From: Acholeplasmatales bacterium
GTDB lineage: Bacteria > Bacillota_I > Bacilli_A > Acholeplasmatales > Anaeroplasmataceae
Direction: 5' to 3'
Assembly: GCA_017462645.1 (NCBI GenBank)
Contig: JAFTQR010000011.1
Coordinates: forward strand, 1-48,433
Length of the DNA: 48,433 nucleotides
Part shown: positions 292 through 47,865 of the stretch, in pieces
How the letters are laid out: each line of letters opens with the position of its first letter
How positions within the stretch are numbered: position 1 is the first letter of the stretch
Program-made: the position numbers and the translations under genes
The notes under the pieces: model-generated
The model's database searches: none
Seen by the model: the letters and a program-made list of their open reading frames with translations, nothing else
What the model was told of the DNA's origin: nothing

Positions 292-1647
292 ATGCTATGG
301 AGAAAAAAACAAAAAGATATTGTAGAATGGATTCGTAAAGAAAAAAAAGCATTATTAATTACTGGTGCTAGACAAATAGGCAAAACATACATAATTAGAG
401 AAATGCTTAAACAAGAAAATTGTGATTATGTTGAATTCAATCTTATTGAACAACCAGAAATGATAAAGGTTCTTGAAGCAGTTACAAATAACAACTCTCA
501 AGCCTTTATTGAAAGGTTATCAATTGCTACAAGTCATAAGCTCGTTAAAGGAAAGACAATAATATTTTTCGACGAAATTCAAGAGTACAAAGAAATAGTC
601 ACTAAAATTAAATTTTTAGTAGATGATGGTAGTTTTAAATATGTTTTCAGTGGTTCTTTACTTGGTGTGGAGCTAACAGGATTGAAATCAGCACCAGTGG
701 GATATTTAAATACTATTGAAATGTTTCCTCTTGATTTTGAAGAATATTCAATTGCATTAAATATAAAAAAAGAAACACTTGAAAGGCTGTATAAAGCATT
801 TGAAGAAAAAAGAACTGTAGATGACTTTGTTCATGAAAAAATGCTTGAAGCATTTAGAAGTTATCTTTTGGTTGGTGGAATGCCTGAAGCAGTTAATTCT
901 TATGTTAACGATCATGATTATAATGAAATATATAAAATTCATCTTAATATAATAGAACAATATAAGTTGGATTTTACAAAGTATGAAAAAGAAAAACGAT
1001 TAAAATTAAAAAGCATTTATAATCTCATTCCTTCAGAGCTTGCTGATAAGAATAAAAGATATATTTTTAAAGATATTGATCCTAATATTAAATTTGATAG
1101 ATATGAAAATAGCTTTAATTGGTTAATTGATGCAGGTGTTGCAATTCCAGTATATAATGCAACTGAGCCTAGGTTACCTCTTGAAATTAATAAAAAGAGT
1201 AATTTGTTTAAACTATTTTTATCTGATATAGGTTTATTAACTAGCTTATACGGCAAAGCCACTCAAATGGCAATTATGAATCAAGATTTATCACTTAATT
1301 GTGGAGCCATCTATGAAAATGTGGTTGCGCAAGAATTAAATTCACATGGTTATGATGGCTATTATTTTAATAGTCATAAACAAGGAGAGTTGGATTTTGT
1401 TATAGAATATAAAAACCATATTGTACCTATTGAAGTAAAAAGTGGAAAGGATTATAGAAAACATTCGGCTTTAGATAATGTTGTAAACAATAAAGATTAT
1501 GGTGTGAAAGAAGCCTTTGTTTTTTCTAATGCTAATATTTCAGTTGATGATAAAATAATTTATTATCCAATTTATATGATAATGTTTGTCAATGAAGAAA
1601 TGATTGAAATTCCGAAATTGAAAAAGATAGATTTATCTATCATATAA
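292..1647 (+). CDS. AAA+ ATPase with DUF4143 C-terminal domain
   Basis: A 451-residue protein of the AAA_14/DUF4143 group. Walker A is GARQIGKT (residues 25-32), Walker B is IIFFDEIQE (about 90-98), and GSLLG near 125 is a sensor-like loop. The C-terminal third has ELDFVI followed by VPIEVKSG, the DUF4143 end that resembles a PD-(D/E)XK nuclease core. Such proteins are common in mobile and accessory gene sets, and their substrate is mostly unknown. I chose the ATG at 292 because GGAG at 279-282 lies nine bases upstream; an in-frame ATG at 286 would be too close. It stands alone between two PBP gene ends, so it was probably acquired by insertion. Confidence 0.85.
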   Translation: MLWRKKQKDIVEWIRKEKKALLITGARQIGKTYIIREMLKQENCDYVEFNLIEQPEMIKVLEAVTNNNSQAFIERLSIATSHKLVKGKTIIFFDEIQEYKEIVTKIKFLVDDGSFKYVFSGSLLGVELTGLKSAPVGYLNTIEMFPLDFEEYSIALNIKKETLERLYKAFEEKRTVDDFVHEKMLEAFRSYLLVGGMPEAVNSYVNDHDYNEIYKIHLNIIEQYKLDFTKYEKEKRLKLKSIYNLIPSELADKNKRYIFKDIDPNIKFDRYENSFNWLIDAGVAIPVYNATEPRLPLEINKKSNLFKLFLSDIGLLTSLYGKATQMAIMNQDLSLNCGAIYENVVAQELNSHGYDGYYFNSHKQGELDFVIEYKNHIVPIEVKSGKDYRKHSALDNVVNNKDYGVKEAFVFSNANISVDDKIIYYPIYMIMFVNEEMIEIPKLKKIDLSII

Positions 1648-1721
1648 TCAAAAGAAGATATAGAAAATATGTAGTTTTAGCTATTGTTATTAAGATTATT
1701 GAATAAATGAGGTTTGTCCAT

Positions 1722-2462
1722 ATGAAAACTAAAATTATAAATATAACAATTTGTATATTAATAGGTATTTTTGTAATCCTATTTCCAGTTATATCAGGAA
1801 TTATAGTAGGAATAACAAAAATGGAAGGAGCTAGTATATTATTTTTACAAGCCTTTTTTATGTTGTTACCTATAATTATATTTATAATATTAATTCTATT
1901 AAAAAAGATTAATGGAAAAGATATTAGACTTGTAACAAATGTTAATAAAAAGAATTATTTATATTATTTACCTGTTGTTCTAGTATATATACCAGTATTA
2001 ATAGGTGGATTTGTTTGGAAGGGGAGTGCCTATTTTTTTGGCAACTTATTATTGTATTTAGCGGTTGGTATTGCAGAAGAATTATATTTTAGAGGTATAA
2101 TACCACATTTGCTTGAAAAGGATTTTAAAAAGGAACCTGTCATTTTAATTTCTTCATTAATATTTGGGTTAGGGCATGCTGCTAGTGCATTTGCAAATAA
2201 TAATCCAATAGTTGTTGTATTAACAATATTAAATGCTTTAATATTTGGCTTTTTAGCTATATGCTTGCTTTACAAGACTAAGACTATTGTGCCGCTAATG
2301 ATTATCCATTTTTTATTTGATTTTGAAACAAAATTTATTGCATTAGAAGGTAATGACTTAAGTATTGCTGAAGGAGTTAGAGGATCAATAATGCTCATAT
2401 ATGCGATTATTTTATTTGTGTTAATTAGAAAAACTTCAAAATCAGAAGTTATGGGGAACTAG
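1722..2462 (+). CDS. CPBP family intramembrane metalloprotease
   Basis: A 246-residue, mostly hydrophobic protein with about seven or eight membrane segments. The CPBP/Abi (CAAX protease-like, PF02517) motifs are present in order: EELYFRG (Glu119, Glu120, Arg124), FGLGH (His151) and HFLFDF (His196), which are the expected metal-binding and catalytic residues. In Firmicutes these proteins act in bacteriocin self-immunity, peptide processing or signalling; the substrate cannot be told here. An ATG at 1707 is in frame, but the start at 1722 has a better-placed AGG and starts directly at the charged end before the first membrane helix. It follows the DUF4143 gene by about 70 bases and ends just before an IS-like remnant. 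Confidence 0.88.
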   Translation: MKTKIINITICILIGIFVILFPVISGIIVGITKMEGASILFLQAFFMLLPIIIFIILILLKKINGKDIRLVTNVNKKNYLYYLPVVLVYIPVLIGGFVWKGSAYFFGNLLLYLAVGIAEELYFRGIIPHLLEKDFKKEPVILISSLIFGLGHAASAFANNNPIVVVLTILNALIFGFLAICLLYKTKTIVPLMIIHFLFDFETKFIALEGNDLSIAEGVRGSIMLIYAIILFVLIRKTSKSEVMGN

Positions 2463-2467
2463 ATATA

Positions 2468-2568
2468 AAATGAACTGCCCCTTGTCAAGTAGACACGGTA
2501 AATAAAAAATAAAAAATAAAAAATGGCTTAGTTAAGCCGAAAAATGAACAGAAATCTCCTGCCCGATA
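2468..2568. mobile_element. Probable remnant of an IS3-family insertion sequence end
   Basis: The segment begins ATGAACTGCCCCTTGTCA and continues AAGTAGACAC, which resembles the terminal inverted repeats of IS3/IS150-group elements (TGAACTGnCCC...TAGACA type). It is followed by a 7-base tandem run (AATAAAA, three to four times) and an unexplained, comparatively G+C-rich stretch. No transposase is present and no second end was found. It lies at the point where the truncated PBP sequence begins, so an IS may have mediated that rearrangement. The family call rests on resemblance only. Confidence 0.4.
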
Positions 2569-3000
2569 ACGTTAGTCTTAGGTAAAACTGGAACAGCTCA
2601 GGTAATATCATCAACAGGTGGATATGAGTCTGGTCATTACATTTTATCATTTTTAGGTATGGCACCTATGAGTGATCCAGAGATACTTTGTTATCTTGCA
2701 ATAGGTAAACCACAAAATTGTGTACAATATGGTGGAACTGTTGCAGCACCACTTGTTGGTGAAATAATGGAACAATCACTTACCTATTTAGGTATAAATA
2801 GAGATTATGATAATCAAATAGAAAAGAATTTAAGATGGTTTTTAGATACACCTACCTATAAGGTAGATAATTATATAGGTAAAACTAAAAATGAAATAAA
2901 GAATACTCAATTTTATAATTATGTATATTATGGTGATGGAGATACAGTAATATATCAATCACCTGATCAAGGAGAGATGATAAAAGAAGAGATACTATAA
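2569..3000 (+). pseudogene. 5'-truncated penicillin-binding protein gene (transpeptidase end plus PASTA)
   Basis: The reading frame opens abruptly at the third transpeptidase motif: LGKTGTAQ at 2578-2601 corresponds to the KTG box of class B PBPs. It continues through the end of the catalytic domain (GGTVAAPLVGEIM) into a PASTA-like tail and stops at 2998. The SxxK and SxN motifs and all upstream sequence are missing and no start signal fits, so this is a fragment of about 144 codons and not a working enzyme. Its last 165 bases match the PBP end at the start of the window almost base for base. It is followed by the second 25-bp repeat and a complete hairpin at 3009-3030. This is probably the ancestral 3' flank. 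Confidence 0.85.
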
Positions 3001-3017
3001 TGCTATATATGGGATGA
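2993..3017 (+). repeat. 25-bp repeat, copy 2 of 3
   Basis: Identical to copies at 172-196 and 4203-4227. Only in this copy do the last nine bases (ATGGGATGA, 3009-3017) pair with a following TCATCCCAT (3022-3030), forming a hairpin with a four-base loop. The other two copies keep only the left arm. The breakpoint between copies therefore lies at the loop of this hairpin. Confidence 0.85.
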
Positions 3018-3030
3018 GTTTTCATCCCAT
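3009..3030. terminator. Terminator-like hairpin after the PBP end
   Basis: A nine-base-pair perfect stem ATGGGATGA/TCATCCCAT with loop GTTT. The following sequence is A+T-rich, but the U run is weak on both strands. It separates the plus-strand PBP end from the minus-strand DUF1016 gene that ends at 3034. Confidence 0.5.
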
Positions 3031-3033
3031 TAT

Positions 3034-3999
3034 TTAAATTCCATTTAATTTTCTTTCTAAATATTCAGGTAATTCCTCTATAAATTTATATTTTGATATT
3101 GCTAAAGGCTGAGATAAGCCTTGGAGAGATATCTTACATATAATATTATCTGCATCATGACATAAAAGTAAACCAATGGTTGGATTATCTATATTATCCT
3201 TTAAGAAAGTATCAACAGCATTAACATAAAAAATTAGTTGGCCTATATTTTCTGGTTCAAATTTTGTAAGTTTTACTTCAATAACGACAAATGAGTGAAC
3301 TTTAAAATTATAAAATAATAAATCTATTCTTCTTATTGAATCTCCTATATTTAGTTCATATTCTTTTCCTACTAACGCAAATCCCTCACCAAGGTCCTTT
3401 AAAAATACTACTATGTTTTCTAATAGTTTATTTTTAAATTCATATTCGTTATTGTTTTTACTTATTCCTGGATAATCAATAATATAAGTATCTTTAAACA
3501 TGTTTTCAATAGGTAAATTTATTTGGATGGAATTATTAGTGTTAGATAATTGTAATAGATATGTTCCTTTTTTAATTTCTCTTTCAACTTCAGGTCTAGA
3601 TAGTCTATTATTATAAGCATAATTAATATACCACATAACTTCCTCATGTGAGGAACACTTATGAATTATGCTCAGAATTGTTGCCCAAGGAATTTGGCTC
3701 ACAGGCTGTGAGCTAATTTCATAATATGAAAAAGTTTTAGCAAATAAAGACATTCGTTTCAAATTAGCTAATGACATCCCATGATAACCTTTTAAATCAA
3801 GAGCTAATTTAGTTAAAAATTTATTTCCCCATTGTTTTTGTTGATTTATTATTGTGCCTATTTCATAATAAGTCATAATCATAGTGCTATTAACAACAAC
3901 CATAGCTTTAGCTTGATTGGAACTTAGAGTGCTCTTGATTTTTTCTAATTCTTTTAAATAATCTTTCTCAATAATTGTAATTTCTTTTGTTTTAGTCAT
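3034..3999 (-). CDS. DUF1016 (YhcG-type) PD-(D/E)XK nuclease domain protein
   Basis: 321 residues. The N-terminal half (about 20-150) fits the DUF1016 N domain, with VNSTMIMTYYEIG and IPWATILSII. The C-terminal half has a PD-(D/E)XK core: RIDLLFYN (Asp226) followed by VVIEVKL (Glu241, Lys243) and IGQLIFYVN. Proteins of this type are putative endonucleases found on genomic islands and beside restriction or defence genes. The start is set at the ATG at 3999, which has AAAGGA eight bases upstream; an in-frame TTG at 4023 overlaps the attenuator U run and is unlikely. Expression probably depends on the leader/attenuator at 4014-4129. Target and physiological role are not known. Confidence 0.85.
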   Translation of the reverse strand: MTKTKEITIIEKDYLKELEKIKSTLSSNQAKAMVVVNSTMIMTYYEIGTIINQQKQWGNKFLTKLALDLKGYHGMSLANLKRMSLFAKTFSYYEISSQPVSQIPWATILSIIHKCSSHEEVMWYINYAYNNRLSRPEVEREIKKGTYLLQLSNTNNSIQINLPIENMFKDTYIIDYPGISKNNNEYEFKNKLLENIVVFLKDLGEGFALVGKEYELNIGDSIRRIDLLFYNFKVHSFVVIEVKLTKFEPENIGQLIFYVNAVDTFLKDNIDNPTIGLLLCHDADNIICKISLQGLSQPLAISKYKFIEELPEYLERKLNGI

Positions 4000-4228: not shown

Positions 4229-5141
4229 TTAGTCTAAATATCTATTTAATAAATCATCAATATCAATACTTTCTAATTTAGATATTTGACTTATCTTTTT
4301 ACCTATATCGTTTATAGATGAACCAACATTATATAATTCATCATCTATTACTATGAATCTATCATGATACTTATTAGTTCTTACAATAGTTAAATCATGA
4401 TTTTGTTGAAATAAATTAATTTCTCTATTAGTTATAGGACTAGATGGATAAATGTAAATTGTTATAGATATAACAATACCCATTAACATTTCTAATACAG
4501 AATAATCATATAATGATTATTCTGTATTTTGCTGTATTAAATAAATTTTTAATAAAAGAATATCCTTCAAACATTTCCCCATTATAAAATATCTTATCTT
4601 TAAGTATATCTATAGAATTAATACTATCTAATCTTAATTCAACATTAGTTAATCTATTATTAAAATTAGTAATAGTAGAATTTATTTGATTAATAGCATT
4701 ATTCATTTGAATTATATTATCACTATGAGCTGTACATCTTGATTTATTAATAACATATCCATTCAGTAGATATTGTTTTAATATTGAATTAGCCCAACGT
4801 CTGAATATTATGCCTCTTTCAGATTTAACTCTATAGCCCACGGATATTATTATTTCTAAATTATAATAAGATATTTCTCTTTCTACATATCTATTACCTT
4901 CAAGTTGAACTATCGCAAATTTTGCGACAGTTGAATTTTTACATTCTTCATTTAATGCATTGTTAATATGTTTAGATATTGTTTTAATATCTCTATTGAA
5001 GAGTAAAGATATTTCGTTTCTATTCAACCAAACAGTTTCTTCATTAGGTGAAACATTAACATCTAATTCAAAATCACCATCTTTAAATTTAATTAATTCA
5101 TAATTTTTCTCAATCTTTTCAATTTTATTATTATCGTTCAT
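4229..5141 (-). pseudogene. RhuM-family virulence/DNA-binding protein, frameshifted
   Basis: The N-terminal part (start ATG at 5141, AAAAGGAAGG upstream) reads as a RhuM family protein: LDVNVSPNEETVWLNRNEIS, ISKHINNALNEE, STVAKFAIVQLEGNRYVERE, YYNLEIIISVGYRVKSERG, then FRRWAN. It stops at a TGA near 4512, in the phrase TAKYRIIII. The expected C-terminal part continues in another frame (SPITNREINLFQQNHDLTIV, then KYHDRFIVIDDELYNVGSSI), a phospholipase D-like HxxxxxxD region, and ends at 4229. The break coincides with a 35-base palindrome. A small deletion is the simplest explanation. The gene uses the second copy of the leader, which is itself damaged. Confidence 0.8.
4494..4528. repeat. 35-base palindrome at the RhuM lesion
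   Basis: AATACAGAATAATCAT, three bases (ATA), then its exact reverse complement ATGATTATTCTGTATT. It sits exactly where the RhuM reading frame breaks. No U run follows, so it does not look like a designed terminator. Confidence 0.85.
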
Positions 5142-35331: not shown

Positions 35332-36348
35332 ATGTATAAAAGAATATCGATGGTTAGTCTTTTTTTCTTTATATTAAGCTACAACTATATATGGCTAAGG
35401 ACAACATTATTCCCTCATTTTTATAATACCTATGGTGTTAATGGTATTTTCTATATTCTTTTTATAGCAATGGTGATTGGTCTTTTCTTTCTTATTCTCC
35501 CAAAAGCCCTCTATAAAATAGAATACAAGGAATATGAAAAATCAAAATATAAAAATTTTTTAAATGCTATTTTATTTATAAGAATAGCTTTAGGAATAGC
35601 TATTGTAGGTGTAATCTTATATACCCTTTTCTTTTATGATTATCCATTAATAATGAGTATTATTGGTATAGTATTAGTTATATTAATAATTTCAAATTCA
35701 AAGCCAAGTGATATTATTCAAATATCAACATTATTTGGAATTATTGGCTTATTATTATATTTCTTTTACCTATATCAATTTATTGAATTAGATTTTAGTC
35801 TTATATCATTTGATTTTAAATTAGATAATTATATTTTATATATATTATTAGCCGCCTTAATTTTTGATAATTTAATATATTTAATTACAGATAAGGAAAA
35901 ACTTAAAATTACAAAAAAAACAGTAATAATTGGAATTATGATTTCATTTTTATTATTACTGTTTGAATATTCATTTCTTACTTTATCATCTGGAGATGAG
36001 TTATTTAAAAATAGTCCATTATCAGGCTTTCAAGCTTTATCTATAGAGCCTATTACAAGATTTAATGGTAATTTTGATTATATTTATATTGTGCTTATAA
36101 TAACATCAATAGTTTTTAAAATGTCTTATTTTTTAAGCATTATTAAGAATTCCATTAAATCTAGATTTGGAAGAATTAAAGAAATGTTATTATTACTAAT
36201 TTCCTTGTCAGCGCTTATTTATATTTTCTATATAATAAATGAAAATAATGTAGCTATAAGCTATTCCTTGTCAGTTATTTTATTTTTATTATGTGGTAGT
36301 ATATTAATTTGGTTTATTTGGGTGGTAAAAAATGCTAAAAAGGCTTAA
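35332..36348 (+). CDS. Spore germinant receptor B subunit (GerAB-like permease)
   Basis: 338 residues with ten predicted membrane helices and short loops, the layout of GerAB/YndE proteins of the APC superfamily that form the germinant-binding membrane subunit. Sequence identity to known motifs is low by eye, and the call leans on context: the next two genes are clear GerAA and GerAC homologues. Stretches such as KNFLNAILFIRIALGIAIVG and LLSGFQALSIEPI-like loops fit the family. GGTGGTGAG precedes the ATG. It overlaps the gerAA-like gene by 17 bases. Confidence 0.75.
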   Translation: MYKRISMVSLFFFILSYNYIWLRTTLFPHFYNTYGVNGIFYILFIAMVIGLFFLILPKALYKIEYKEYEKSKYKNFLNAILFIRIALGIAIVGVILYTLFFYDYPLIMSIIGIVLVILIISNSKPSDIIQISTLFGIIGLLLYFFYLYQFIELDFSLISFDFKLDNYILYILLAALIFDNLIYLITDKEKLKITKKTVIIGIMISFLLLLFEYSFLTLSSGDELFKNSPLSGFQALSIEPITRFNGNFDYIYIVLIITSIVFKMSYFLSIIKNSIKSRFGRIKEMLLLLISLSALIYIFYIINENNVAISYSLSVILFLLCGSILIWFIWVVKNAKKA

Positions 36349-37711
36349 GAATAATTCTGATGTTATCTATAAGGAAACTAAAGGTAATTGTGTGATTTGT
36401 TATCAGGAGCAGTTATGTAATATATTAGAATTTATGAAGGATTTTTATCCTAGGATAGAATCGCATATCAAAAGTGATTTAGATGATTTATTCCCAGGTA
36501 TTTGTAAGAAAATAGATCCTAATTATGAGTTTATTGAGCAGCTTGTATTTTCTGGACTATTAGTAGCCTATAGAAATTTTCAATATTATGCCTTTGATAT
36601 TTCAAAGGCTCCATCAAGAGCTATTTCTGATTCTATTACTGAGGCTGAAAGTGCCTTTCAGGCTAGAGATGGATTTGTTGAAAATTTTAAGGATAATATT
36701 GCATTAATTAGAACTAGAGTAAGAGATTCAAGATTAAATATTAAAAATATAATGGTTGGTAGAAGAAGTAAAACTAACATATCTATTTTATCAATAAATG
36801 ATATTCATAATAAGGAAATAGTTAATAGAGTTATTGAGGAAATAGAGAAAATAGATATAGATGCGATTATAAGCATGGATGATTTAACAAGCTATATTCA
36901 AAGGGGAAAATTATTCCCTACCTATCAATACGTAGGAAGTCCTGATTTAGCTTGTAAAAGGCTATATAATGGTGAGGTTGTAATAGTTATTGATAGGGTT
37001 TCATGTGTACTTGTTTTACCAGTTACCTTATCAATATCCTCTAGATTATCTATAGACAATCTAAATATTCCGTTCTTTTCTTTATTCGAACGAAGCTTTA
37101 TATTGCTGGCGTTTTTAATTTCAATCTTATTTTTAGGGTTGCTAATAAGCTTTACAACATATCAAAGTGATTCATTATCACTCAGATGGTTATCTATATT
37201 AAAGGTTACTCAAAAGGGAGTTGTTTTTCCTATTTTTTATGAGGTAGCTATTATTATAGCTTTATTTGAATTGTTTTATCTAATCGGCTTTAGGCAATCA
37301 AAATTTACTATTTCCTCAACTGTTGTTTTAATAGGTGGATTAATAATTGGTGAAAATCTTGTAACAAGTGGTGTTACAGGTGTGTTTATTATGACATTTA
37401 CAGCTATAACCTTCCTAATGACCTTTGTAGTAAGCAGTAATGTAACAATATTGATGTCTATTAGTGTTGTTAGAATATTGATAATGATATCGTCCTTTTA
37501 TTTAGGACTTTATGGAGTTATTTTAGCAGCAATATTGCTTGTGTATCTAATGTATAGACAAACAACCTTTGGTGTGCATTATTTTTATCCCTTTATTCCA
37601 TTTGATGTTAGTGGAATAAAAAAATTCTTTACCTCTAGCTCATCATTAAAAAATAATACAAGGGATGAGCCTCTTAAGGTAAAGAATAAATATAGGAGGA
37701 GTATAAGATGA
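36332..37711 (+). CDS. Spore germinant receptor A subunit (GerAA-like)
   Basis: 459 residues. The soluble N-terminal half has the GerA family signature near 94-125: SKAPSRAISDSITEAESAFQ, then ARDGFVENFKDNIALIRTR (corresponding to P-x-R-x-x-x-E...GPR-x-GF-x-E). The C-terminal half has about five membrane helices, with LPVTLSISSRLSIDNLNIPF and GLIIGENLVTSGVTGVF. In Bacillus this subunit forms an oligomeric channel in the inner spore membrane that responds to nutrients. The stop overlaps the next ATG (ATGA). The gene order B-A-C differs from the Bacillus order A-B-C. Confidence 0.88.
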   Translation: MLKRLKNNSDVIYKETKGNCVICYQEQLCNILEFMKDFYPRIESHIKSDLDDLFPGICKKIDPNYEFIEQLVFSGLLVAYRNFQYYAFDISKAPSRAISDSITEAESAFQARDGFVENFKDNIALIRTRVRDSRLNIKNIMVGRRSKTNISILSINDIHNKEIVNRVIEEIEKIDIDAIISMDDLTSYIQRGKLFPTYQYVGSPDLACKRLYNGEVVIVIDRVSCVLVLPVTLSISSRLSIDNLNIPFFSLFERSFILLAFLISILFLGLLISFTTYQSDSLSLRWLSILKVTQKGVVFPIFYEVAIIIALFELFYLIGFRQSKFTISSTVVLIGGLIIGENLVTSGVTGVFIMTFTAITFLMTFVVSSNVTILMSISVVRILIMISSFYLGLYGVILAAILLVYLMYRQTTFGVHYFYPFIPFDVSGIKKFFTSSSSLKNNTRDEPLKVKNKYRRSIR

Positions 37712-38376
37712 AAAGGCTAATTATTATTTTTATTCTTATAATGGCTTTATCAAGCTGTCAAAATAAAACGGATATATATGAAAGCCTTTATATTGCCTCA
37801 ATGGGAATAGAAAAAATAGAAGATGAATATCAAGCCCATTTTTTACTTCCTAGCAGCATGGATGTCGGTTCTAATAAATCAGAGAGTAATGAAAGTGATG
37901 TAGCTAAAATAAAGGCTGATAATCTTAAGGATTTAATTGAAAATATAAAGGATTCATCTCTTTTAACTATAAATTTAAAGCATATTTCCTCATTTATACT
38001 TCATACAAGCATTTTAAATGAAAAGGATTTAAAAGTTTTGATTGATTTAATAAAGGATTCAAAAGATTTTGATTATAATTTTTATATGTTTACTACTGAG
38101 GAAAATATAGAAAAAATATATAAAATAAAGAATCCAAATCAAGAAAGTATTGTTTATACAATGCTTGTTGAACCTAATGAATCTGAATTTTTACTTAAGA
38201 ATAGTAAGCCAGTCCATTTTTTAAATATGTGTAGAGATTTTTTAGATAATAAGGAAATTAGGCTTCCCTATATAGAACTAGCTAGTGTTTGGGATGAAAA
38301 CGACAGTATAAGATGTGAATATAATCTTATATATCATAAAAACAATTTTGTATTAAAAAAAATAAAAAAAGGATAA
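37708..38376 (+). CDS. Spore germinant receptor C subunit (GerAC-like lipoprotein), short
   Basis: 222 residues. A signal peptide ends in a lipobox (ALSSC, Cys17), as in GerAC proteins. Early residues (YESLYIASMGIEK) match the start of the family, and TINLKHISSFILHTSILNEK fits domain 1, where the position of HxxxxxFxxxL is conserved. Usual GerAC proteins have about 360-400 residues, so the C-terminal domain is absent; the frame ends cleanly at a TAA followed by a terminator. It may be a naturally short form in this lineage or a decayed gene. Confidence 0.8.
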   Translation: MKRLIIIFILIMALSSCQNKTDIYESLYIASMGIEKIEDEYQAHFLLPSSMDVGSNKSESNESDVAKIKADNLKDLIENIKDSSLLTINLKHISSFILHTSILNEKDLKVLIDLIKDSKDFDYNFYMFTTEENIEKIYKIKNPNQESIVYTMLVEPNESEFLLKNSKPVHFLNMCRDFLDNKEIRLPYIELASVWDENDSIRCEYNLIYHKNNFVLKKIKKG

Positions 38377-38625: not shown

Positions 38626-38633
38626 GGGGGGGG
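38626..38633 (+). promoter_or_regulatory. G8 homopolymer serving as Shine-Dalgarno of the giant gene
   Basis: AAAGGGGGGGG stands seven bases before the ATG at 38641. An uninterrupted run of eight G in such AT-rich DNA is exceptional, and changes in its length would change spacing and strength of the ribosome binding site. Upstream, TTGACT (38542) and AT-rich boxes near 38556-38570 may form the promoter. Confidence 0.6.
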
Positions 38634-38640
38634 TAACCTT

Positions 38641-41600
38641 ATGAGTTTAGAGAAGATTATTGATATAGCAATACTTTGGGGACCAACTATTTTTTTAGTT
38701 GTTTCTTTAGTATTAGGAATTATATGGGGATTAATTAGAGGCTTTAGAAAGAGCGTTATTTTATTTATACAAGCTATTGTCGCATGTATTATATGTACTA
38801 TTGCATATAGTATTGTTGTTAATATGGACAGTATAGATAGAGATATGGTTTCCATGATAAATAGTTTTATGGGTTCAGAATATGCATTGCAGGAGGAGCT
38901 TGAAGTAAGTCAAAGCTGCCTTACAATGAGGGATATTCTTGTAGAATTCATTCCAAAGAATATAGATTATGGCGATGGTATTGCTTTGATTGTAAAGGAG
39001 AATGGTCAATATTTAGCTACTTTAGTTGATATGGCTTATCATTTGATTTGGGCATTAGTATTCGTTGTAATTTATTTTATCTTAGTATTTGTATTCTATA
39101 TTATTTACCTAATATTCTATCCAGAGGGAAGATATAGAAGAAGAAAAAATAGAAAATATAGACAATTACAATCTGAAAAGCCATATAGAAAGCGCCCATT
39201 ATTAGGAGCTTTAGTCGGTGGAGGAAGATCTATAATTACATCTTTAGTTGTTTTATCTTTTGTTGGTTCATTATTCTTTATTTTAGCTGGTGGTGAAGGA
39301 AATAGAGAAAAGGATGATTATGAATTTGGAGATAAGGATGCTGATTTAGTATATTCTATCTATCAATCTATTGGTTCATATGGTACTGAGGGTATTTTTA
39401 AAATTTTAAATACTGTTAAGGACAGTGATGATGTACCATATTACTTATATGCTGCTGACTTAGTATTCCAAGGAGATTTAAATGATCCTGACAGAGGCAT
39501 AAATGAAAATGTTAATTTTAGAAATGAGCTTGCAGCATACGTAGGCTTTACAGAGGATACATTAGATTTATTACTTAAGTATGGTGGAGATCAAATCAGA
39601 GATATAGTTTTAGATAGAACTGATGAAGAGGTGTTAGATATTCTTGTTGAAATTATGGCTAAGCCAGAATTCCAAGAGGATTTCGGTATAATTATTGATG
39701 AGTTTGATGGTCAAACATATTTTATTAACTTTAGCTTATCTTTAGTTGATTCTATTGTAAATCATTTAGATGAAACTGATTTTGCAGATGATTTAGGTAG
39801 TGATACAATTGAATTAATTAATATTTTATTTAAGAAGGGCTATTTATCAGATAGTATTCCTTCTGAAAAGCAATTAAAGGAAGAATTAGCTAATAATCCT
39901 AATGCTAATCCTGAGGATTATACATTAGCTTATATTAATCCAACATCTTTATTAACTAAAGAGGATACAAAGGAATTAGTAAAACTAGTATTAGCAATAT
40001 TACAAATTGATGATGAGCAGGATGAGGTAGAACTAATTAGTGATTATGCAGATTTTGTTGTTCCTGCAGTTGAAAAGCTTTCTATTTTATCTGATAGCAG
40101 AAAGGACGAAATCAATCCTGTATTAAGTAGATTATATCAATATTTAGAGGCTACATTAATTGAAGACTCTAATGAAGAGGTCACATTATCATATACTAAA
40201 ACTACATTATCTAATGGTGATGAAACATTAGATTTATCAAGTGTAGATTGGATTAAAGAAATTAATATGCTATTAGATATAGCATTTGATGTTACAACAA
40301 TTGTAGATACAGCATATGATAAGGATGCTGAATATTATGAATTATTCTTTGATATATTTAAAGAGGGTAATGAGGCTGCAGCACAAAGCTATGATAATAT
40401 AGTAGATTGCTTAGCTAATTCTGAGCTTTTAGGCTTAGTGCTATCATCAAAGTATGTTGATGATGCATTAATTGATGCCATACCTAATATATATATTTCT
40501 GATTCTATTACATATTTGAATAAATATGATGAGCAAGGAAATGTAACGGAATATGGAGAATTATATAATCTATTAACTGCTATAAGAGTTATAGGTGCTA
40601 ATCAAGATAATAGAGAAATTGTTTCAAAGCTAATGGATTCTGATTCTTTAAGTGATGCAGAATTATTAGAAACTATTAGTGATGCAGTTAGAAGTATTAC
40701 ATCTGGTGATGATAATGCATTAGGCTATGTATTAGATTCTAAGCTAGTATTATCAATTGCTTCAGCATATATTATTGAAAGTAAGGATATAGCTGAAGGA
40801 TTTGAGATGTATATTCCTGATTCTGTATTAGAACGTAACGGAAATGGTCAGGCTATTAATATCATTAAGAGAAGTGAGTTGGAGCCTGTATTATATAATG
40901 CTGCAAATGTTTTAGATGTGGTTATCCCATATTTAGATAAGGATAATCCTGAAACATATAATAAGATTACACCATTAGTTAATAGCTTAACTGAGGGTGG
41001 AGATAATAGCATTATTAATAAAATATTAGATAGTACAATTATTCAAGGTACTGTAGTTATTGTTATTGCTGATACATTAACAGATGAATCAGTTAAGGAT
41101 TATATTACAATGCCTGATGGATATATGAGCAATGATTCTGCAAATGTAGAAAAGTGGATTGAGGAACAAGAATTATCAAAGCTTGTAAATGCTATTTCTG
41201 TAAGTGGATTAGATATTGATGCGTTTATGGTTGAGGGCGAAGAAGAGCAGCAGGATGCTATTCTAGAACAAATTAAGCTACTAGGTGAGAAGGAAAATTC
41301 TACTGATGAAAGTCAAAGACCAATTGTACAACTATTAAAGTCAAAGGTTTTACATTATACATTGTCTGGCCTATTAATCACTGAAGACGGTGAAAAACCA
41401 TTAGTTGAGGGTGTAACTATTGTTGTACCTGATGATTCTAAGGAAAACGGAAAACTAATTAAGGCTGATGAAATTTCAGGAGTTGTTAAGGTTCTTCCAG
41501 ATTTATTAGAGGCAATTGATCCAGTATTAGAGGATTCTGAAAATCTTGATATTGATTTATTAATATCTAATTTAGCTAGTAAATCTAATGGAGAATCTGT

Positions 41601-44600
41601 AGTAGACAGATTATTAAATAGCAATATTATTCATTATACTCTAGCCGGTACATTATCTGATTTACTAAGTGAAGATGATTTAAGTGATTTTGTTGCGTTA
41701 CCTGAGGATTTATTAAATCCAGATGGAAGTGCAAATTTAGATGCATGGGTTGAAAATGGTGAAATTTCAAGCTTTATAAACGCTGTGGTTGAAAGCAATG
41801 TAAGCTTTAATGCACTTGCCGGTGATTATGAAACATCAGGTGAGCAAACAGATGCTATCTTAGATGAATTAACTAAGGAAGAAGCTAATTTAGGTTCATT
41901 ATTAGATTCTAGAATACTGCATTATACAGTTTCTAGTCTATTAATCACTGAAGATGGCGAGGAATCTTTAATTGAGGGAATAACAATTGTAGTTCCATCT
42001 TATGAAAATGATAATGGATATATTAACAAGTCCACTTTGATCCATTTAGTGGAAAATATTACTGTATTATTACCAGATTCAAGTATTTCTACTGATAGTG
42101 ATGAATATACAAATACGTTAGTTTTAAATGCTATAAATAATAGAGATGATTTATTAGAAAATACAATTTTATCTGCTACTATAGTTACAATTCTAAATGA
42201 TGGTGTAACATTACCAGAGGATGTAAGAGAACTAATTACAATTCCAGCAAATTTAGAAGAAGCTAGTAAGGATGTTGATACTATTGGTACTATTAATAAT
42301 CCGTGGACTAATGAGCTTCCAGCTGTATTTGATGCGTTAGATGAACTATTAGGTATTACAGGTAATGATGATTTTACATTTGATAATCCTAATTTAGCTG
42401 ATGATGTTTTAGCTAACGTTTCTACATTAAATGAAGCTAGTGCTGTTGGCGAAGGCACTAAGCTAGATGTATGCTATGAATCAATTATCATTAAGCATAC
42501 ATTAACTAATCAAATTATTAATAATGAGGATATTACTAGTACAATATCAATTCCTAGTGATGTAATAGTTGATGATGTTTTAGACAAGGAGGAAATTAAA
42601 TCATTAATTTCAGCCGTAAATGAGCTTGAAATTGATTTAGCAAATCCTAGTATTGAGGCTTTACCACTAACAACAATTAATGAAGAGGTTATTTCATCTT
42701 CAGTAATTATTAGAGCTACTTTATACAAGCAATTAAATACAGAGTCATCTGATTTAGTTATTCCAAATTCAGCATTAGAAAATAATGATAGAATAGCTGC
42801 TGAAGAAATGAATATTCTATTTGCAATATTAAAGAATAATGCTAGTCTATTATTTGGCGAGGCAGACTCTAATGGAAAATATAATATTAATAATGTTTCA
42901 TTAAATCAATTATCAGTTAATAACATTAAGAATTTAAATACAGGCTCTATTATTTTAGAGGCAACAATTATTAATCAATTAGCTATAAATGAGAGTATTA
43001 CCGAAACTGTAAGTATTCCTTTAGATTATAATGAAGCTGCAGAAAGAACTGTATTAATCAATACATATGGTGATAATAATATTTGGAATCAAAAGAATGA
43101 ATCAGGAAATGATGAATTAGATAGCTTAATTAATGCTTTAGGCTATTTAGTAGATTCTGATGCTAATCTAATGGATTCAGCAAACATTTCACAAGATATG
43201 ATTATGAATAATGTATTAAGCTTAAATGAAGAGGCTAATGCTGAATCAACAAAACTTGAGCTAGCATATGAGTCTATTATTGTTAAATCTACATTAAGAG
43301 ATACATTAGCTAATGATGTAGAGGGTGTATATGTTCCTGATGCTGCGTATACAGAAGATTCTTATGTTGATATAAATGAGCTTTCAACATTAATTGATGC
43401 GGTTAATGATTTAGAGCTTGATTTAAACAATGTAAGCCTTGAGGAATTACCTTTAAAGGAAATTAATTCTGAAATAGTTTCAAAGTCTAAAATCTTAAGC
43501 GCAACTATTTATGCTAGTTTGAGTGTAAATGACACACTTGTTATTCCTAATGCTGTTGTTACCTTAGATAATAGTAATAATTATTTAAGTCAAGTTGAAA
43601 TGCAAAGCCTATTAGATGCGTTAAAGACTAATGCTGATAGCTTCTTTGGCACACCAATTATTAAAGATAATAAGGAATACTATAATATTACTAATGTCAG
43701 CATTAGTAGTCTAACAGTTAATGATATCAATAATATGAGAACAGCTTCAATAATATTAGAAGCTACAATTATTAATCAATTAGTTGTTAATGAAGGTCTA
43801 AGTGGCACTATATCAATGCCTTTAGAATACAAAAATGATGCTGAAAGAACTCAATTAATTAATACATACGGCAATAATAATATATGGAATTATGAAAATG
43901 AAGGTAATAATGAGCTAGATAATTTAATTAATGCTTTAGGCAATTTAGTAGGCTATGATGTGGATTTAATGGATTCTACTAATATGTCAGAGGAAACATT
44001 AATGAATAATGTTTTAACATTAAATGATGATCAAACTAAGCTTGATGAAACATACGCATCAGTTATTATTAAGTCTACATTAACAGATAATATTAAAGAA
44101 TTAGAGGCTATTAATGTTCCAGCTGTAGCATATGATGATCAATATATTTCTAAGCAAGAGATATATGATTTAATAACAGCGATTGAGGAATTAGGCGTAG
44201 ATATTAATAATCCTAATTTAACATCATTACCGCTTGCTGATATTGATGCGAATATGGTTGCTCCATCATATATTATTAGAGCGACATTATATGTTAAATT
44301 TAATGAAAATGCTAGTAATACATTAATTATCCCAACTGCTGTAGTAGAGGATGATGAATATAATGACTATATCACTACTGATGAAACTATTTATTTATTA
44401 GAAGCATTACAAATGAATGCAAATAGCTTCTTTGGCACACCAACAGTTAATGGTGAAAAGGAGTACTACGATATTACGAATGTTTCTATTTCTAGCATAA
44501 GCATTAATATGATTAAATCTATTAAGGAAGATTCAATCATTATGCAGGCTACAATTATAAATCAATTATCTACTAATACTACTATAAATGCACAAATTAC

Positions 44601-47600
44601 TATGCCAAATGAATATATCGATGATGCTACAAGTGATAGTTTAAAAGCTACATATGGTAATGATAATGTATGGAGTACTAATAATGAGTTAGATAATTTA
44701 ATTCAAGCATTAGAATATATTCTTGGTGAAGAAAATTCAGATAGTAATTTATTAGCAGATGGTGTATTAACAGAGGATGTTATTGTTGATAATGTTCTTA
44801 ATTTAAATGTATTAGTTAATGATTATACATCTGATACAAAACTTCATGTGTCTTATTATTCTGAGGTATTTAAGGCAACAATTACTAACAAACTAGCTAA
44901 TATGACTGATTCTGGTATTTATGTACCAAAGGCAGCATACGATGGTGATTATATTAATGAGGCTGAAATGTCTAATTTAATCGTTTCTGCAAATAAGCTA
45001 GGAATTAATCTAACAACAGAAATTAGTTATCTTGCATTAGATTATTTAGATGATGATGCTTCTGATATATCTAAATCAATTATTATAAGAGCTACATTAT
45101 ATGCTCAATTTAATGATTTAAATGAAATGGTAATTCCTGATGCAGCAGCAATTATCCCTAATGATGCTGATGATTATAGTTATTTAAAAACTGATGAAAC
45201 TACTGTTTTATTACAAAGATTAAAGGAAAATAAGGATACTTTATTTGTAAGTAATTCTGAAGGCTTATATGATGTAACAAGTGTTAATATTACTGAAGGT
45301 TTATCAATTAATTTAATTAATAATCTAAAGAAGGATTCTTTAATTTTACAAGCTACAATTATCAGTAATATTATTACTCAAGGTACTATAAGTCTACCTA
45401 CTGATTATTATAATGAAGACTTAGTGGCTAATTATGGTACTGAAAATAGTATTTGGTATAGTACAAATGAATTAGATAATATGATGATAGGCTTATCACA
45501 TTTAGTTGATCCTAATGCAAATATTACTGAGCTTGATACAACAACTTTACAAGATAAAATCACTGATTTAAATAATGAGGGTGTAAATGGTACTAAGCTA
45601 GATGATTGTTATTTATCAGCTGTAATTAGTATGAATTTAACTACTGAGTTAGATAAGGTTTTAGCTGATAAGGTTGATTCTAATGTAATAGAATCTGTAA
45701 AAACTAATGGCATTTATAATAAGCAAGAGGTATCGGCATTAGTAAATGCAATGAATGAGCTAGATTTAGATTCTTCAATGGATACATCTAATATTAGTTC
45801 TAATGTCACAAGTATAAATGATCAAAGTACTGTTGTTGAAGACTCTACAAAGCTAGATGTATTATATACATCAATAATTATTCAAAATATTTTAACAGAT
45901 GAAGTTGATTTAATCCTAACATCTGAAATAATTATAGAAATCGTAAGAGATGAAGCCAAGGATAATAACATTTATATTAAGGAAGAGGTTGCTGCATTAA
46001 TTGATTCTATGAATATTTTAGGATTAACTAATGAAATTGATACTCAAGCTGTTTCAAATAAGGTATTAGATTTAAATAATGATGATTTGACAATTATTTA
46101 TAAATCTACAATCGTTAAATATATTTTATCTGATGAAGTAAAAACAGCGTTAACAGGTAATATTAATGCTGAATATGTTGAATATGTAGGTGTTCAAGAG
46201 CTAATAGTAAAGGATGAAACAAATAATATAAATTACTATAATTATATCCAAAGTGAAATTCTAGGCTTAATTAATGCATTAAATGAAATATTAGCTGATG
46301 GACAAACATTAGATGATATTAATAGTGATGTTATATCAAATGCTATATTTAATGCTAACATTGATAATTTATATGGTTCATTCATGATAAGAAATGAATT
46401 ATCTGAACAATTAGCTTCATCATTAGCACCTCAAAACATTAGTTCAGAAATTAATTCTGCTTCAATGGAAAAAGATATTAATGAAAAAGATATTTATAAG
46501 TCTATAGAGGTTCAATATCTAATTAATGCTTTAAAGGCAATTGGTGTTGATAGTAGTGATTCACTAGAGACTAAAATCGATATTGACTTAAATACAATAA
46601 AGGATAATTTAGATACGATTTACCTATCAAATATTGTTGTTGATATTTTAACAGCTAAGATTGATACAAAGCTAGAAGGTAAGGCATATGAAATTGATTA
46701 TAGACCATATGCTAAGGAGCAATTTAATAATACTAATGTATGGTTATTTAAGAAGAATGAAATTACTAATTTAATTAATGTATTAACAAATTATGATTTT
46801 GATACATTAGATGTAGCTTCATTATCAATTGAAGAGGTTTCAGCTATGGTTAATGGTTCTGTTGTAATTCAAGCTGTTGCATCTAAGACTATCGTTGATA
46901 ATGATCAATTAATAGTTCCTACATCAGTTAAGGATACTACTAATACTATTGAAAACTCATTTATGATTGAAATTGATCATATTAATGCATTATTAGAATT
47001 CTTAAATGTTCATGTTTCAGACGACGGATTAAACACATTAAATATTACTAAATTCAACCCAACATTAACAGCTGATGATATTGAACTAATTGGAGCATCT
47101 GTAATCTTAAATGTAACAATAGCAAATGAAATTTATGCAAATGAATTTGTTTATGCTCCTATATCTGTAAAGGAAATGACAGATAACGTAGAAAGAGCAG
47201 TAGTAGATAATGTGGTAGAAAATGAAGCTATAGATATTATCTCTATTAAATCTACTGAGGTAATTGCATTTATTGATGCGTTAGTTACAGGCTTAAATGT
47301 ATCTAATATTAGAAGTATTGATAATACAGTATTAAATACTATGGGTGATTTAACAGCCGAAAAGGAAAAGGCAATTACTGAATCTAAGATTTTAAATGCT
47401 ACTATTACTAATAATCTATCAATTAGTGAAGAAGGATTGATTATTTATGCATTAACTGATACAATCTATGAGGTAAATGCAGAAAATGAAAATACATATG
47501 TATTTATGCTAACTGATACTGAGCTAATTAGCTTAATTGAAGCAATAAAGGTATTTAGCTCTGATTCTGAAGAACAATCATTCGAGGTTGATTTATCATT

Positions 47601-47844
47601 TGATAATCTAACTAATATTGCAAGTTCTAATGGCGAGGACTTTGATAAGGCCTTAGAATCTAATGTGATTAGATTAGTGGTGACTCAGGTATTAATTAAT
47701 AAGTATGGCACAGCTGCTTTAGGTATTATTGACCAGGTTAGTGCTTATAATATTCAAATTAATGATACTGAACCTGTGATAACTGATGTTAACTCAATTT
47801 CTAAAGAACAAATATCATCTAAAATAAAAATGGCGAGAGCGTAA
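38641..47844 (+). CDS. Giant CvpA-like membrane-anchored protein with extracytoplasmic tandem modules (3067 residues)
   Basis: Residues 1-218 have four membrane helices (about 10-28, 36-58, 127-158, 186-216). GIIWGLIRGFRKS near 22-34 and LLGALVGGGRSII near 187-199 resemble CvpA-family proteins. Basic loops after helices 1 and 3 place the long remainder outside the cell by the positive-inside rule. From about residue 590 the protein consists of some 28 divergent modules of 70-110 residues: an S-[IV]-[IV]-x-x-x-T-[IL] strand-like start, a ([IV]-x)-[IV]-P turn, and a helix such as NELDNLINALG. Three module types repeat as a higher unit of about 264 residues. It is acidic and has no LPXTG or other wall signal. 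In-frame codons upstream of 38641 lack a site. Function is unknown; adhesion or envelope scaffolding is only a guess. Confidence 0.85.
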   Translation: MSLEKIIDIAILWGPTIFLVVSLVLGIIWGLIRGFRKSVILFIQAIVACIICTIAYSIVVNMDSIDRDMVSMINSFMGSEYALQEELEVSQSCLTMRDILVEFIPKNIDYGDGIALIVKENGQYLATLVDMAYHLIWALVFVVIYFILVFVFYIIYLIFYPEGRYRRRKNRKYRQLQSEKPYRKRPLLGALVGGGRSIITSLVVLSFVGSLFFILAGGEGNREKDDYEFGDKDADLVYSIYQSIGSYGTEGIFKILNTVKDSDDVPYYLYAADLVFQGDLNDPDRGINENVNFRNELAAYVGFTEDTLDLLLKYGGDQIRDIVLDRTDEEVLDILVEIMAKPEFQEDFGIIIDEFDGQTYFINFSLSLVDSIVNHLDETDFADDLGSDTIELINILFKKGYLSDSIPSEKQLKEELANNPNANPEDYTLAYINPTSLLTKEDTKELVKLVLAILQIDDEQDEVELISDYADFVVPAVEKLSILSDSRKDEINPVLSRLYQYLEATLIEDSNEEVTLSYTKTTLSNGDETLDLSSVDWIKEINMLLDIAFDVTTIVDTAYDKDAEYYELFFDIFKEGNEAAAQSYDNIVDCLANSELLGLVLSSKYVDDALIDAIPNIYISDSITYLNKYDEQGNVTEYGELYNLLTAIRVIGANQDNREIVSKLMDSDSLSDAELLETISDAVRSITSGDDNALGYVLDSKLVLSIASAYIIESKDIAEGFEMYIPDSVLERNGNGQAINIIKRSELEPVLYNAANVLDVVIPYLDKDNPETYNKITPLVNSLTEGGDNSIINKILDSTIIQGTVVIVIADTLTDESVKDYITMPDGYMSNDSANVEKWIEEQELSKLVNAISVSGLDIDAFMVEGEEEQQDAILEQIKLLGEKENSTDESQRPIVQLLKSKVLHYTLSGLLITEDGEKPLVEGVTIVVPDDSKENGKLIKADEISGVVKVLPDLLEAIDPVLEDSENLDIDLLISNLASKSNGESVVDRLLNSNIIHYTLAGTLSDLLSEDDLSDFVALPEDLLNPDGSANLDAWVENGEISSFINAVVESNVSFNALAGDYETSGEQTDAILDELTKEEANLGSLLDSRILHYTVSSLLITEDGEESLIEGITIVVPSYENDNGYINKSTLIHLVENITVLLPDSSISTDSDEYTNTLVLNAINNRDDLLENTILSATIVTILNDGVTLPEDVRELITIPANLEEASKDVDTIGTINNPWTNELPAVFDALDELLGITGNDDFTFDNPNLADDVLANVSTLNEASAVGEGTKLDVCYESIIIKHTLTNQIINNEDITSTISIPSDVIVDDVLDKEEIKSLISAVNELEIDLANPSIEALPLTTINEEVISSSVIIRATLYKQLNTESSDLVIPNSALENNDRIAAEEMNILFAILKNNASLLFGEADSNGKYNINNVSLNQLSVNNIKNLNTGSIILEATIINQLAINESITETVSIPLDYNEAAERTVLINTYGDNNIWNQKNESGNDELDSLINALGYLVDSDANLMDSANISQDMIMNNVLSLNEEANAESTKLELAYESIIVKSTLRDTLANDVEGVYVPDAAYTEDSYVDINELSTLIDAVNDLELDLNNVSLEELPLKEINSEIVSKSKILSATIYASLSVNDTLVIPNAVVTLDNSNNYLSQVEMQSLLDALKTNADSFFGTPIIKDNKEYYNITNVSISSLTVNDINNMRTASIILEATIINQLVVNEGLSGTISMPLEYKNDAERTQLINTYGNNNIWNYENEGNNELDNLINALGNLVGYDVDLMDSTNMSEETLMNNVLTLNDDQTKLDETYASVIIKSTLTDNIKELEAINVPAVAYDDQYISKQEIYDLITAIEELGVDINNPNLTSLPLADIDANMVAPSYIIRATLYVKFNENASNTLIIPTAVVEDDEYNDYITTDETIYLLEALQMNANSFFGTPTVNGEKEYYDITNVSISSISINMIKSIKEDSIIMQATIINQLSTNTTINAQITMPNEYIDDATSDSLKATYGNDNVWSTNNELDNLIQALEYILGEENSDSNLLADGVLTEDVIVDNVLNLNVLVNDYTSDTKLHVSYYSEVFKATITNKLANMTDSGIYVPKAAYDGDYINEAEMSNLIVSANKLGINLTTEISYLALDYLDDDASDISKSIIIRATLYAQFNDLNEMVIPDAAAIIPNDADDYSYLKTDETTVLLQRLKENKDTLFVSNSEGLYDVTSVNITEGLSINLINNLKKDSLILQATIISNIITQGTISLPTDYYNEDLVANYGTENSIWYSTNELDNMMIGLSHLVDPNANITELDTTTLQDKITDLNNEGVNGTKLDDCYLSAVISMNLTTELDKVLADKVDSNVIESVKTNGIYNKQEVSALVNAMNELDLDSSMDTSNISSNVTSINDQSTVVEDSTKLDVLYTSIIIQNILTDEVDLILTSEIIIEIVRDEAKDNNIYIKEEVAALIDSMNILGLTNEIDTQAVSNKVLDLNNDDLTIIYKSTIVKYILSDEVKTALTGNINAEYVEYVGVQELIVKDETNNINYYNYIQSEILGLINALNEILADGQTLDDINSDVISNAIFNANIDNLYGSFMIRNELSEQLASSLAPQNISSEINSASMEKDINEKDIYKSIEVQYLINALKAIGVDSSDSLETKIDIDLNTIKDNLDTIYLSNIVVDILTAKIDTKLEGKAYEIDYRPYAKEQFNNTNVWLFKKNEITNLINVLTNYDFDTLDVASLSIEEVSAMVNGSVVIQAVASKTIVDNDQLIVPTSVKDTTNTIENSFMIEIDHINALLEFLNVHVSDDGLNTLNITKFNPTLTADDIELIGASVILNVTIANEIYANEFVYAPISVKEMTDNVERAVVDNVVENEAIDIISIKSTEVIAFIDALVTGLNVSNIRSIDNTVLNTMGDLTAEKEKAITESKILNATITNNLSISEEGLIIYALTDTIYEVNAENENTYVFMLTDTELISLIEAIKVFSSDSEEQSFEVDLSFDNLTNIASSNGEDFDKALESNVIRLVVTQVLINKYGTAALGIIDQVSAYNIQINDTEPVITDVNSISKEQISSKIKMARA
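42481..45615 (+). repeat. Four copies of a 264-residue (about 790-base) super-repeat in the giant gene
   Basis: Units start at 42481, 43273, 44059 and 44860 and the last ends at 45615, with lengths 264, 262, 267 and 252 codons. Each holds three modules: type a (SIIIKxTL, then helix ELxxLIxAxxELxxDLNN), type b (S-x-IIRATLY, then VIP and FFG) and type c (SIIxxATIINQL, then TYGxxNxIW and NELDNLINALG). The copies have diverged at the DNA level, so this is old duplication kept by selection. Confidence 0.8.
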
Positions 47845-47865
47845 TTGCTCTCGCTAGTTTTATTT
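47833..47865 (+). terminator. Terminator of the giant gene
   Basis: GCGAGAGC, loop GTAATT, GCTCTCGC, then TAGTTTTATTTT; the left arm overlaps the last codons. Confidence 0.88.

Follow-up and report, generated by a model that had tools for sequence, protein, structure and literature searches.

A gene in the genome of a gut bacterium of the Acholeplasmatales raises the question of what a protein of 3,067 residues, with membrane helices at its N-terminus and a very long repetitive tail, does at the cell surface and whether it depends on the cell wall. In this bacterial class, the peptidoglycan wall has been lost several times. A first-pass annotation of the locus had proposed a giant surface protein anchored by a CvpA-type head. 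We analyzed the gene in its window, i.e., the whole stretch of 48,433 nucleotides, and compared it with related genomes of the class.

The frame was read from the ATG at 38641 to the stop ending at 47844 and had no internal stop, in agreement with the giant protein first described. The G+C content of the gene was 28.6%, against 27.9% for the window. The gene is flanked by tRNA-Trp and tRNA-His genes, and a spore-germination (gerA) operon encoding GerA and GerAC domains lies upstream (36332-38376). Three terminator-like sites were found in the region, where 0.3 were expected. The source genome, a fragmentary assembly of 1.0 Mb, encodes transpeptidase domains of PBPs and has a murA-like gene. 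Separately, positions 2575-2772 (+) of the window matched the C-terminal end of a PBP transpeptidase domain (E 1.8e-11) within a 150-residue frame; this is either the remnant of a gene or the result of a break in the sequence. The features of the locus are summarized in Table 1.

Table 1. Features of the giant gene and its surroundings in the window (aa, residues of the giant protein).
Feature	Position	Strand	Basis
Ribosome-binding-site-like G-rich run, GGGGGGGG	38626..38633	+	Direct reading; 7 bases 5' of ATG
CDS of the 3,067-residue giant protein	38641..47844	+	Frame read; homologues on open frames in 52/100 relatives
CvpA-like membrane head, helices aa 9-27, 42-60, 140-158, 198-216	38665..39288	+	Hydropathy, charge, profiles
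Conserved juxtamembrane region, predicted outside, aa 231-~590	39331..40413	+	Homologue identity, model
Tail, composed of divergent modules (27-28), aa ~592-3042	40414..47766	+	Module profiles
Two-module repeat, copy 1, aa ~781-954	40981..41502	+	Chunk self-comparison
Two-module repeat, copy 2, aa ~977-1146	41569..42078	+	Chunk self-comparison
Super-repeat 1, aa 1273-1536	42457..43248	+	Module profile; AlphaFold2-modelled
Super-repeat 2, aa 1537-1798	43249..44034	+	Module profile; AlphaFold2-modelled
Super-repeat 3, aa 1799-2065	44035..44835	+	Module profile
Super-repeat 4, aa 2066-2318	44836..45594	+	Module profile
Terminator-like hairpin and T-rich run, overlapping the stop codon of the giant gene	47831..47856	+	11 pairs
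Conserved neighbour gene, truncated by the contig end to its first 103 aa	48124..48433	+	Loci of relatives

Hydropathy analysis of the whole protein indicated four strong hydrophobic segments, all N-terminal, and none strong beyond residue 216. The head also carries the motif GxxRGFRKS (residues 30-38), a basic loop (159-188), and the motif GxxxGxxR (189-196). In the search of its own genome, the window head scored 14.5 bits (E 0.018) against PF02674 (Colicin_V), below the gathering cut-off of 29.3, and hmmscan gave no Colicin_V match for it. When 24 family heads from across the class were compared with Pfam, 11 matched Colicin_V, with a best E value of 2e-4. Alignment of the head profile to a profile of bona fide CvpA proteins using hhalign yielded a probability of 96% (E 5e-9), compared with 4.5% for the reversed control and at most 0.1% for column-shuffled controls. 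An alignment of CvpA proteins was needed for this result, as the single E. coli CvpA sequence gave 9% and no convincing match. These results indicated that the four-helix head and CvpA proteins are homologous at the profile level, and the four CvpA-type helices named in the first-pass annotation were thus supported. Since the profiles match and the window head itself stays below the cut-off, the term "CvpA-like head" is justified and the term "member of PF02674" is not.

The topology was predicted from the charge distribution in 22-23 aligned homologues. Lysine and arginine amounted to 2.3 and 3.4 per 10 residues in loops 1 and 3; for loop 2 and the tail, the values were 0.5 and 0.9, respectively. 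According to the positive-inside rule, this crowding of positive charge in loops 1 and 3 places the tail outside the cell; both ends of the helix bundle would then be extracellular, consistent with the outside part of about 2,850 residues that had been proposed.

This outer part had been described as a chain of modules throughout. That description holds from about residue 592 onward, but residues ~231-590 form a conserved juxtamembrane region that does not consist of typical modules; it includes residues 231-420, where conservation is highest in the whole protein (mean identity to homologues, 45%). Using a profile built from the protein's own modules, we detected 27 copies at E<0.05 and a weak 28th between residues ~592 and ~3042. 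An iterated profile of family modules also detected 27 copies in the window protein, and it gave no hits in shuffled and reversed control sequences. The family consensus of about 66 residues, LLESKILHATISNKL...LVIPDSAL...YIKKDELKNLLDALNVLGI, comprises two helices, the first around S-x-I-[IL]-x-x-T-[IL] and the second around E-[LI]-x-x-L-[IL]-x-A-[LV], and between them a short strand whose last residue is P. The start motif originally assigned to about 28 modules, S[IV][IV]xxxT[IL], occurs in the tail nine times, against 0.1 expected from shuffled tails; the number of modules was right, but the exact motif is restricted to these nine occurrences and the consensus is looser.

Three modules of about 73, 82, and 109 residues compose a super-repeat present in four tandem copies (residues 1273-2318). 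The copies measure 264, 262, 267, and 253 residues and share 36-52% pairwise identity, which corresponds well to the fourfold unit of about 264 residues reported in the first-pass annotation. Self-comparison of the protein in 90-residue chunks also revealed a two-module repeat, absent from that annotation, at residues ~781-954 and 977-1146. Self-BLAST of the whole protein returned only the trivial full-length match. The tail of about 2,850 residues has a calculated pI of 4.05 and a net charge of -354; no LPxTG-like sorting signal was found in the last 300 residues, nor was there a strong C-terminal hydrophobic segment. Hence, the acidic character and the missing wall-sorting signal noted earlier were both reproduced.

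Structure models were generated using AlphaFold2 for two segments, the first 773 residues and residues 1273-1798. The latter, comprising two super-repeats with six modules, was predicted with confidence (pLDDT 88.3, pTM 0.82), so that the structure prediction suggested for this unit in the first-pass annotation could be obtained; short helices and short strands alternate regularly in the model. The model of the first 773 residues was weaker (pLDDT 80.7, pTM 0.66). The modules may be stacked as an extended rod. Comparison of the tail model with the PDB and viral models by Foldseek and VIA-align gave no significant counterpart (best E 0.5-1, best Z 2.8), and the same was true for the model of the first 773 residues; because large models may mask single-domain matches, this result does not prove a new fold.

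Sequence searches with the whole protein against Pfam, NCBIfam, and PDB sequences returned chance-level matches (SAMP2, rplA_mito) or nothing. Using hmmscan against Pfam with E values up to 1, we obtained a single chance-level match and no protease, FIVAR/GA, or wall-binding domain. Thus, as had been stated, the tail has no relative in these three databases, and none of them provided a strong match of the modules to a known family. A literature search found no paper describing this giant CvpA-headed repeat family.

We searched for the family in other genomes using the first 500 residues and the module profile. The former gave matches in 52 of 100 relatives, and nearly all of the matches were single frames longer than 1,000 residues. 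The named relatives are for the most part metagenome assemblies from gut and rumen. The module profile matched 87 genomes in a sample of 394 from the class (45 of 195 genera), distributed over the families f1, f3, f5, f12, f16, f19, f21, f23, f24, and f32 in our numbering, of which f1 is most likely Anaeroplasmataceae. In its iterated form, the profile detected 798 copies in 68 of 78 family members. Head and modules were present on one open frame in the loci read, both among relatives and across the class. The proteins are about 1,100-3,900 residues long across the class and 1,181-3,067 within f1. The search for long CvpA-fused proteins in Bacilli that the first-pass annotation had suggested thus yielded a class-wide family, present in about ten families of organisms with or without a cell wall and missing from Pfam and NCBIfam. 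In several species, the giant protein is possibly the largest of the cell.

The family includes proteins of putative Acholeplasma laidlawii (L176; PMC2408644), putative A. brassicae (L173; PMC4221730), and putative Xianfuyuplasma coldseepsis zrk13 (L129; PMC8397711). In the reference copy L176 (putative A. laidlawii PG-8A), the head is split in the region ~4340-4560, and its first helix lies in a different reading frame from the rest of the gene, owing to either a frameshift in the gene of this strain or a sequence error. Distant members (L074, L075, L114, and L127) have kept the head on a tail with few or no modules recognized by the profile; the frame L114:1-18147 (-), from family f9, stays open for at least 6,049 residues and has a CvpA-like head motif but no module by profile. 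Other CvpA proteins, with tails of about 400-500 residues and Colicin_V matches above the cut-off, were observed in f12 and f16 (L149, L153, L163, and L165); they carry no module of the giant family, and no other Pfam domain was detected in the three that were scanned.

Neither head nor modules were matched in four genomes of the same genus as the source (G003, G004, G008, and G010), two of which are 98% complete, indicating that the protein is not essential in that genus. The module profile also gave no match in nine small genomes (0.6-0.9 Mb) of one sister genus, which are probably those of intracellular phytoplasmas. This absence fits a role outside host cells, but a reduced genome might by itself account for it. 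The head and the region near the membrane were 41-45% identical to homologues, the parts further out 25-28%; this outward fall, together with the freely varying length, is the pattern expected of an exposed stalk.

Based on these results, we propose that the protein is a CvpA-anchored extracellular stalk whose length evolves through duplication of modules and whose action at the surface does not depend on peptidoglycan, a reading that we consider rather probable. The CvpA-like four-helix bundle would be embedded in the cytoplasmic membrane, its two ends facing outward, followed by the conserved juxtamembrane region and then by an acidic, alpha-rich chain of modules, each packed on the next. 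Such a stalk or fibre would be held by the membrane alone and not by peptidoglycan. Module duplication, in the source species of three-module units, would set its length, which may vary freely as long as the membrane-proximal part is kept under constraint. The stalk shape is predicted from sequence features. The most likely job, suggested less firmly, is that of a surface coat or an adhesive fibre of extracellular Bacilli, possibly acting together with the product of a neighbouring gene.

This neighbour was located downstream of the giant gene at 19 of 38 testable loci. In relatives (e.g., L038:4477-5709 and L042:4554-5777), it encodes a protein of about 400 residues with two predicted membrane helices, one close to the N-terminus and one C-terminal; a predicted outside domain of about 260 residues lies between them, and the second helix is followed by a charged tail. 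A Pfam search gave no family above chance. In the window, a terminator and a tRNA gene lie between the two genes, so they are not clearly co-transcribed. The two-helix protein is the best candidate for a partner of the giant protein. In family f24 (L113, L117, L118, L121, L124, and L131), two CvpA-headed giant genes, one long and one shorter, often stand in tandem beside a Trypsin_2 protease gene in divergent orientation, and several of the giant proteins share a similar C-terminus, FLTxxGIxxVLTHYG.

A protein with such a neighbour could also be a sensor or regulator, the head and the two-helix protein relaying an outside signal inward and the tail serving as the receptor. The conservation being greatest in the head and the membrane-adjacent region is consistent with this function, as are the charged and presumably cytoplasmic tail of the neighbour, the protease gene adjoining the giant genes of f24, and the protease borne by a four-helix head in MarP (PMC4992679). 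We regard it as unlikely, since the giant protein has no cytoplasmic signalling domain, its tail varies in length to an extent unusual in receptors, and the neighbour is missing at half of the loci.

The remaining alternatives concern the wall and the spore. Within f1, nine genomes had PBP transpeptidases, and all nine carried the giant protein; of the 26 genomes that had none, 22 carried it. The median lengths in the two groups (1,691 and 1,741 residues) did not differ significantly (p=0.57). For the most part, the PBP-positive genomes were also the ones in which Spo0A exceeded the cut-off and murA matched strongly, which agrees with the published suggestion that Anaeroplasmataceae include walled, spore-forming species beside wall-less ones (PMC10868615). 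Thus, neither the wall nor sporulation explains the protein. Its retention despite the loss of PBP genes, its occurrence in wall-less cultured members, and its very large, acidic sequence with alpha-rich modules in a confident model would suit an exoskeleton in which many copies form a membrane-stabilizing layer on wall-reduced or wall-less cells. However, PBP-positive relatives carry a protein of the same length, and it is missing from G008 and G010, two genomes of the same genus that are PBP-negative and nearly complete. In addition, we know of no surface lattice in Acholeplasma. We thus judge such a layer to be decidedly improbable.

The first-pass annotation had suggested a fibre or scaffold spanning the cell wall, by which the tail would cross the peptidoglycan and tie the membrane to it. 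The tail is long enough to do so, and the PBP domains and the murA-like gene indicate that the source organism is probably walled. This proposal was not upheld: f1 homologues are equally common and equally long in PBP-negative genomes, homologues occur in putative A. laidlawii (PMC2408644) and X. coldseepsis (PMC8397711), which are described as wall-less, and the protein has neither an LPxTG signal nor a Pfam wall-binding domain. There is little chance that it is correct. A spore or germination function, conceivable from the position behind the germination genes here and at some of the compared loci, is hardly credible and was rejected as a general function, because the neighbours differ at the remaining loci and the protein is carried by relatives without an over-cut-off Spo0A match (most of the genus), by acholeplasmas, and by Izemoplasmatales.

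The proposed membrane-held stalk, in turn, bears on how the surface is organized after wall loss, as the family is present on both sides of this transition. A wider and tentative possibility, to which we give rather less credence than to the stalk itself, is that these proteins are an undescribed, class-wide system of membrane-anchored giant fibres with a module fold absent from the PDB, constituting a main surface structure of Bacilli en route to wall loss and kept when peptidoglycan and sporulation are lost. The occurrence in putative A. laidlawii, a classic cultured membrane model, makes location and role directly testable.

Compared with known systems, the head shares with CvpA (Colicin V production protein, PF02674) the four N-terminal helices and the motifs GxxRGxxK and LLGxxxGxxRG, whereas ordinary CvpA members have about 160-250 residues and no giant tail. 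Gli349 and Gli521 are giant membrane-anchored "leg" proteins for gliding in the wall-less relative Mycoplasma mobile. They resemble the giant protein in size and in its predicted anchoring and surface location; to our knowledge, gliding is not known in organisms bearing the present family. Unlike LPxTG wall-anchored proteins, the giant protein has no C-terminal sorting signal or helix. Embp of Staphylococcus epidermidis (PMC7587433), with helical modules, and Giant1-5 of Apilactobacillus kunkeei (PMC12863079) are likewise very long, modular surface proteins. The present protein differs from them in having a membrane head and in lacking a signal peptide, a sorting signal, and Pfam repeats; the FIVAR/GA modules of Embp/Ebh were not matched in it by hmmscan.

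The same layout occurs in mycobacterial MarP, whose head belongs to the Colicin_V family. MarP (Rv3671c) carries a serine protease outside the cytoplasm on a four-helix head, and its periplasmic domain has been characterized experimentally (PMC4992679); this layout was overlooked in the first-pass statement that no described family has a CvpA-like anchor with such a tail. In both proteins, four N-terminal helices carry a C-terminal part outside, by prediction in the case of the giant protein. The trypsin-like protease of MarP comprises about 200 residues, whereas the repeat tail is more than 10 times longer and contains no Pfam protease. CvpA-like heads, on which few extracytoplasmic domains are known, would gain a repeat fibre as a further type of cargo.
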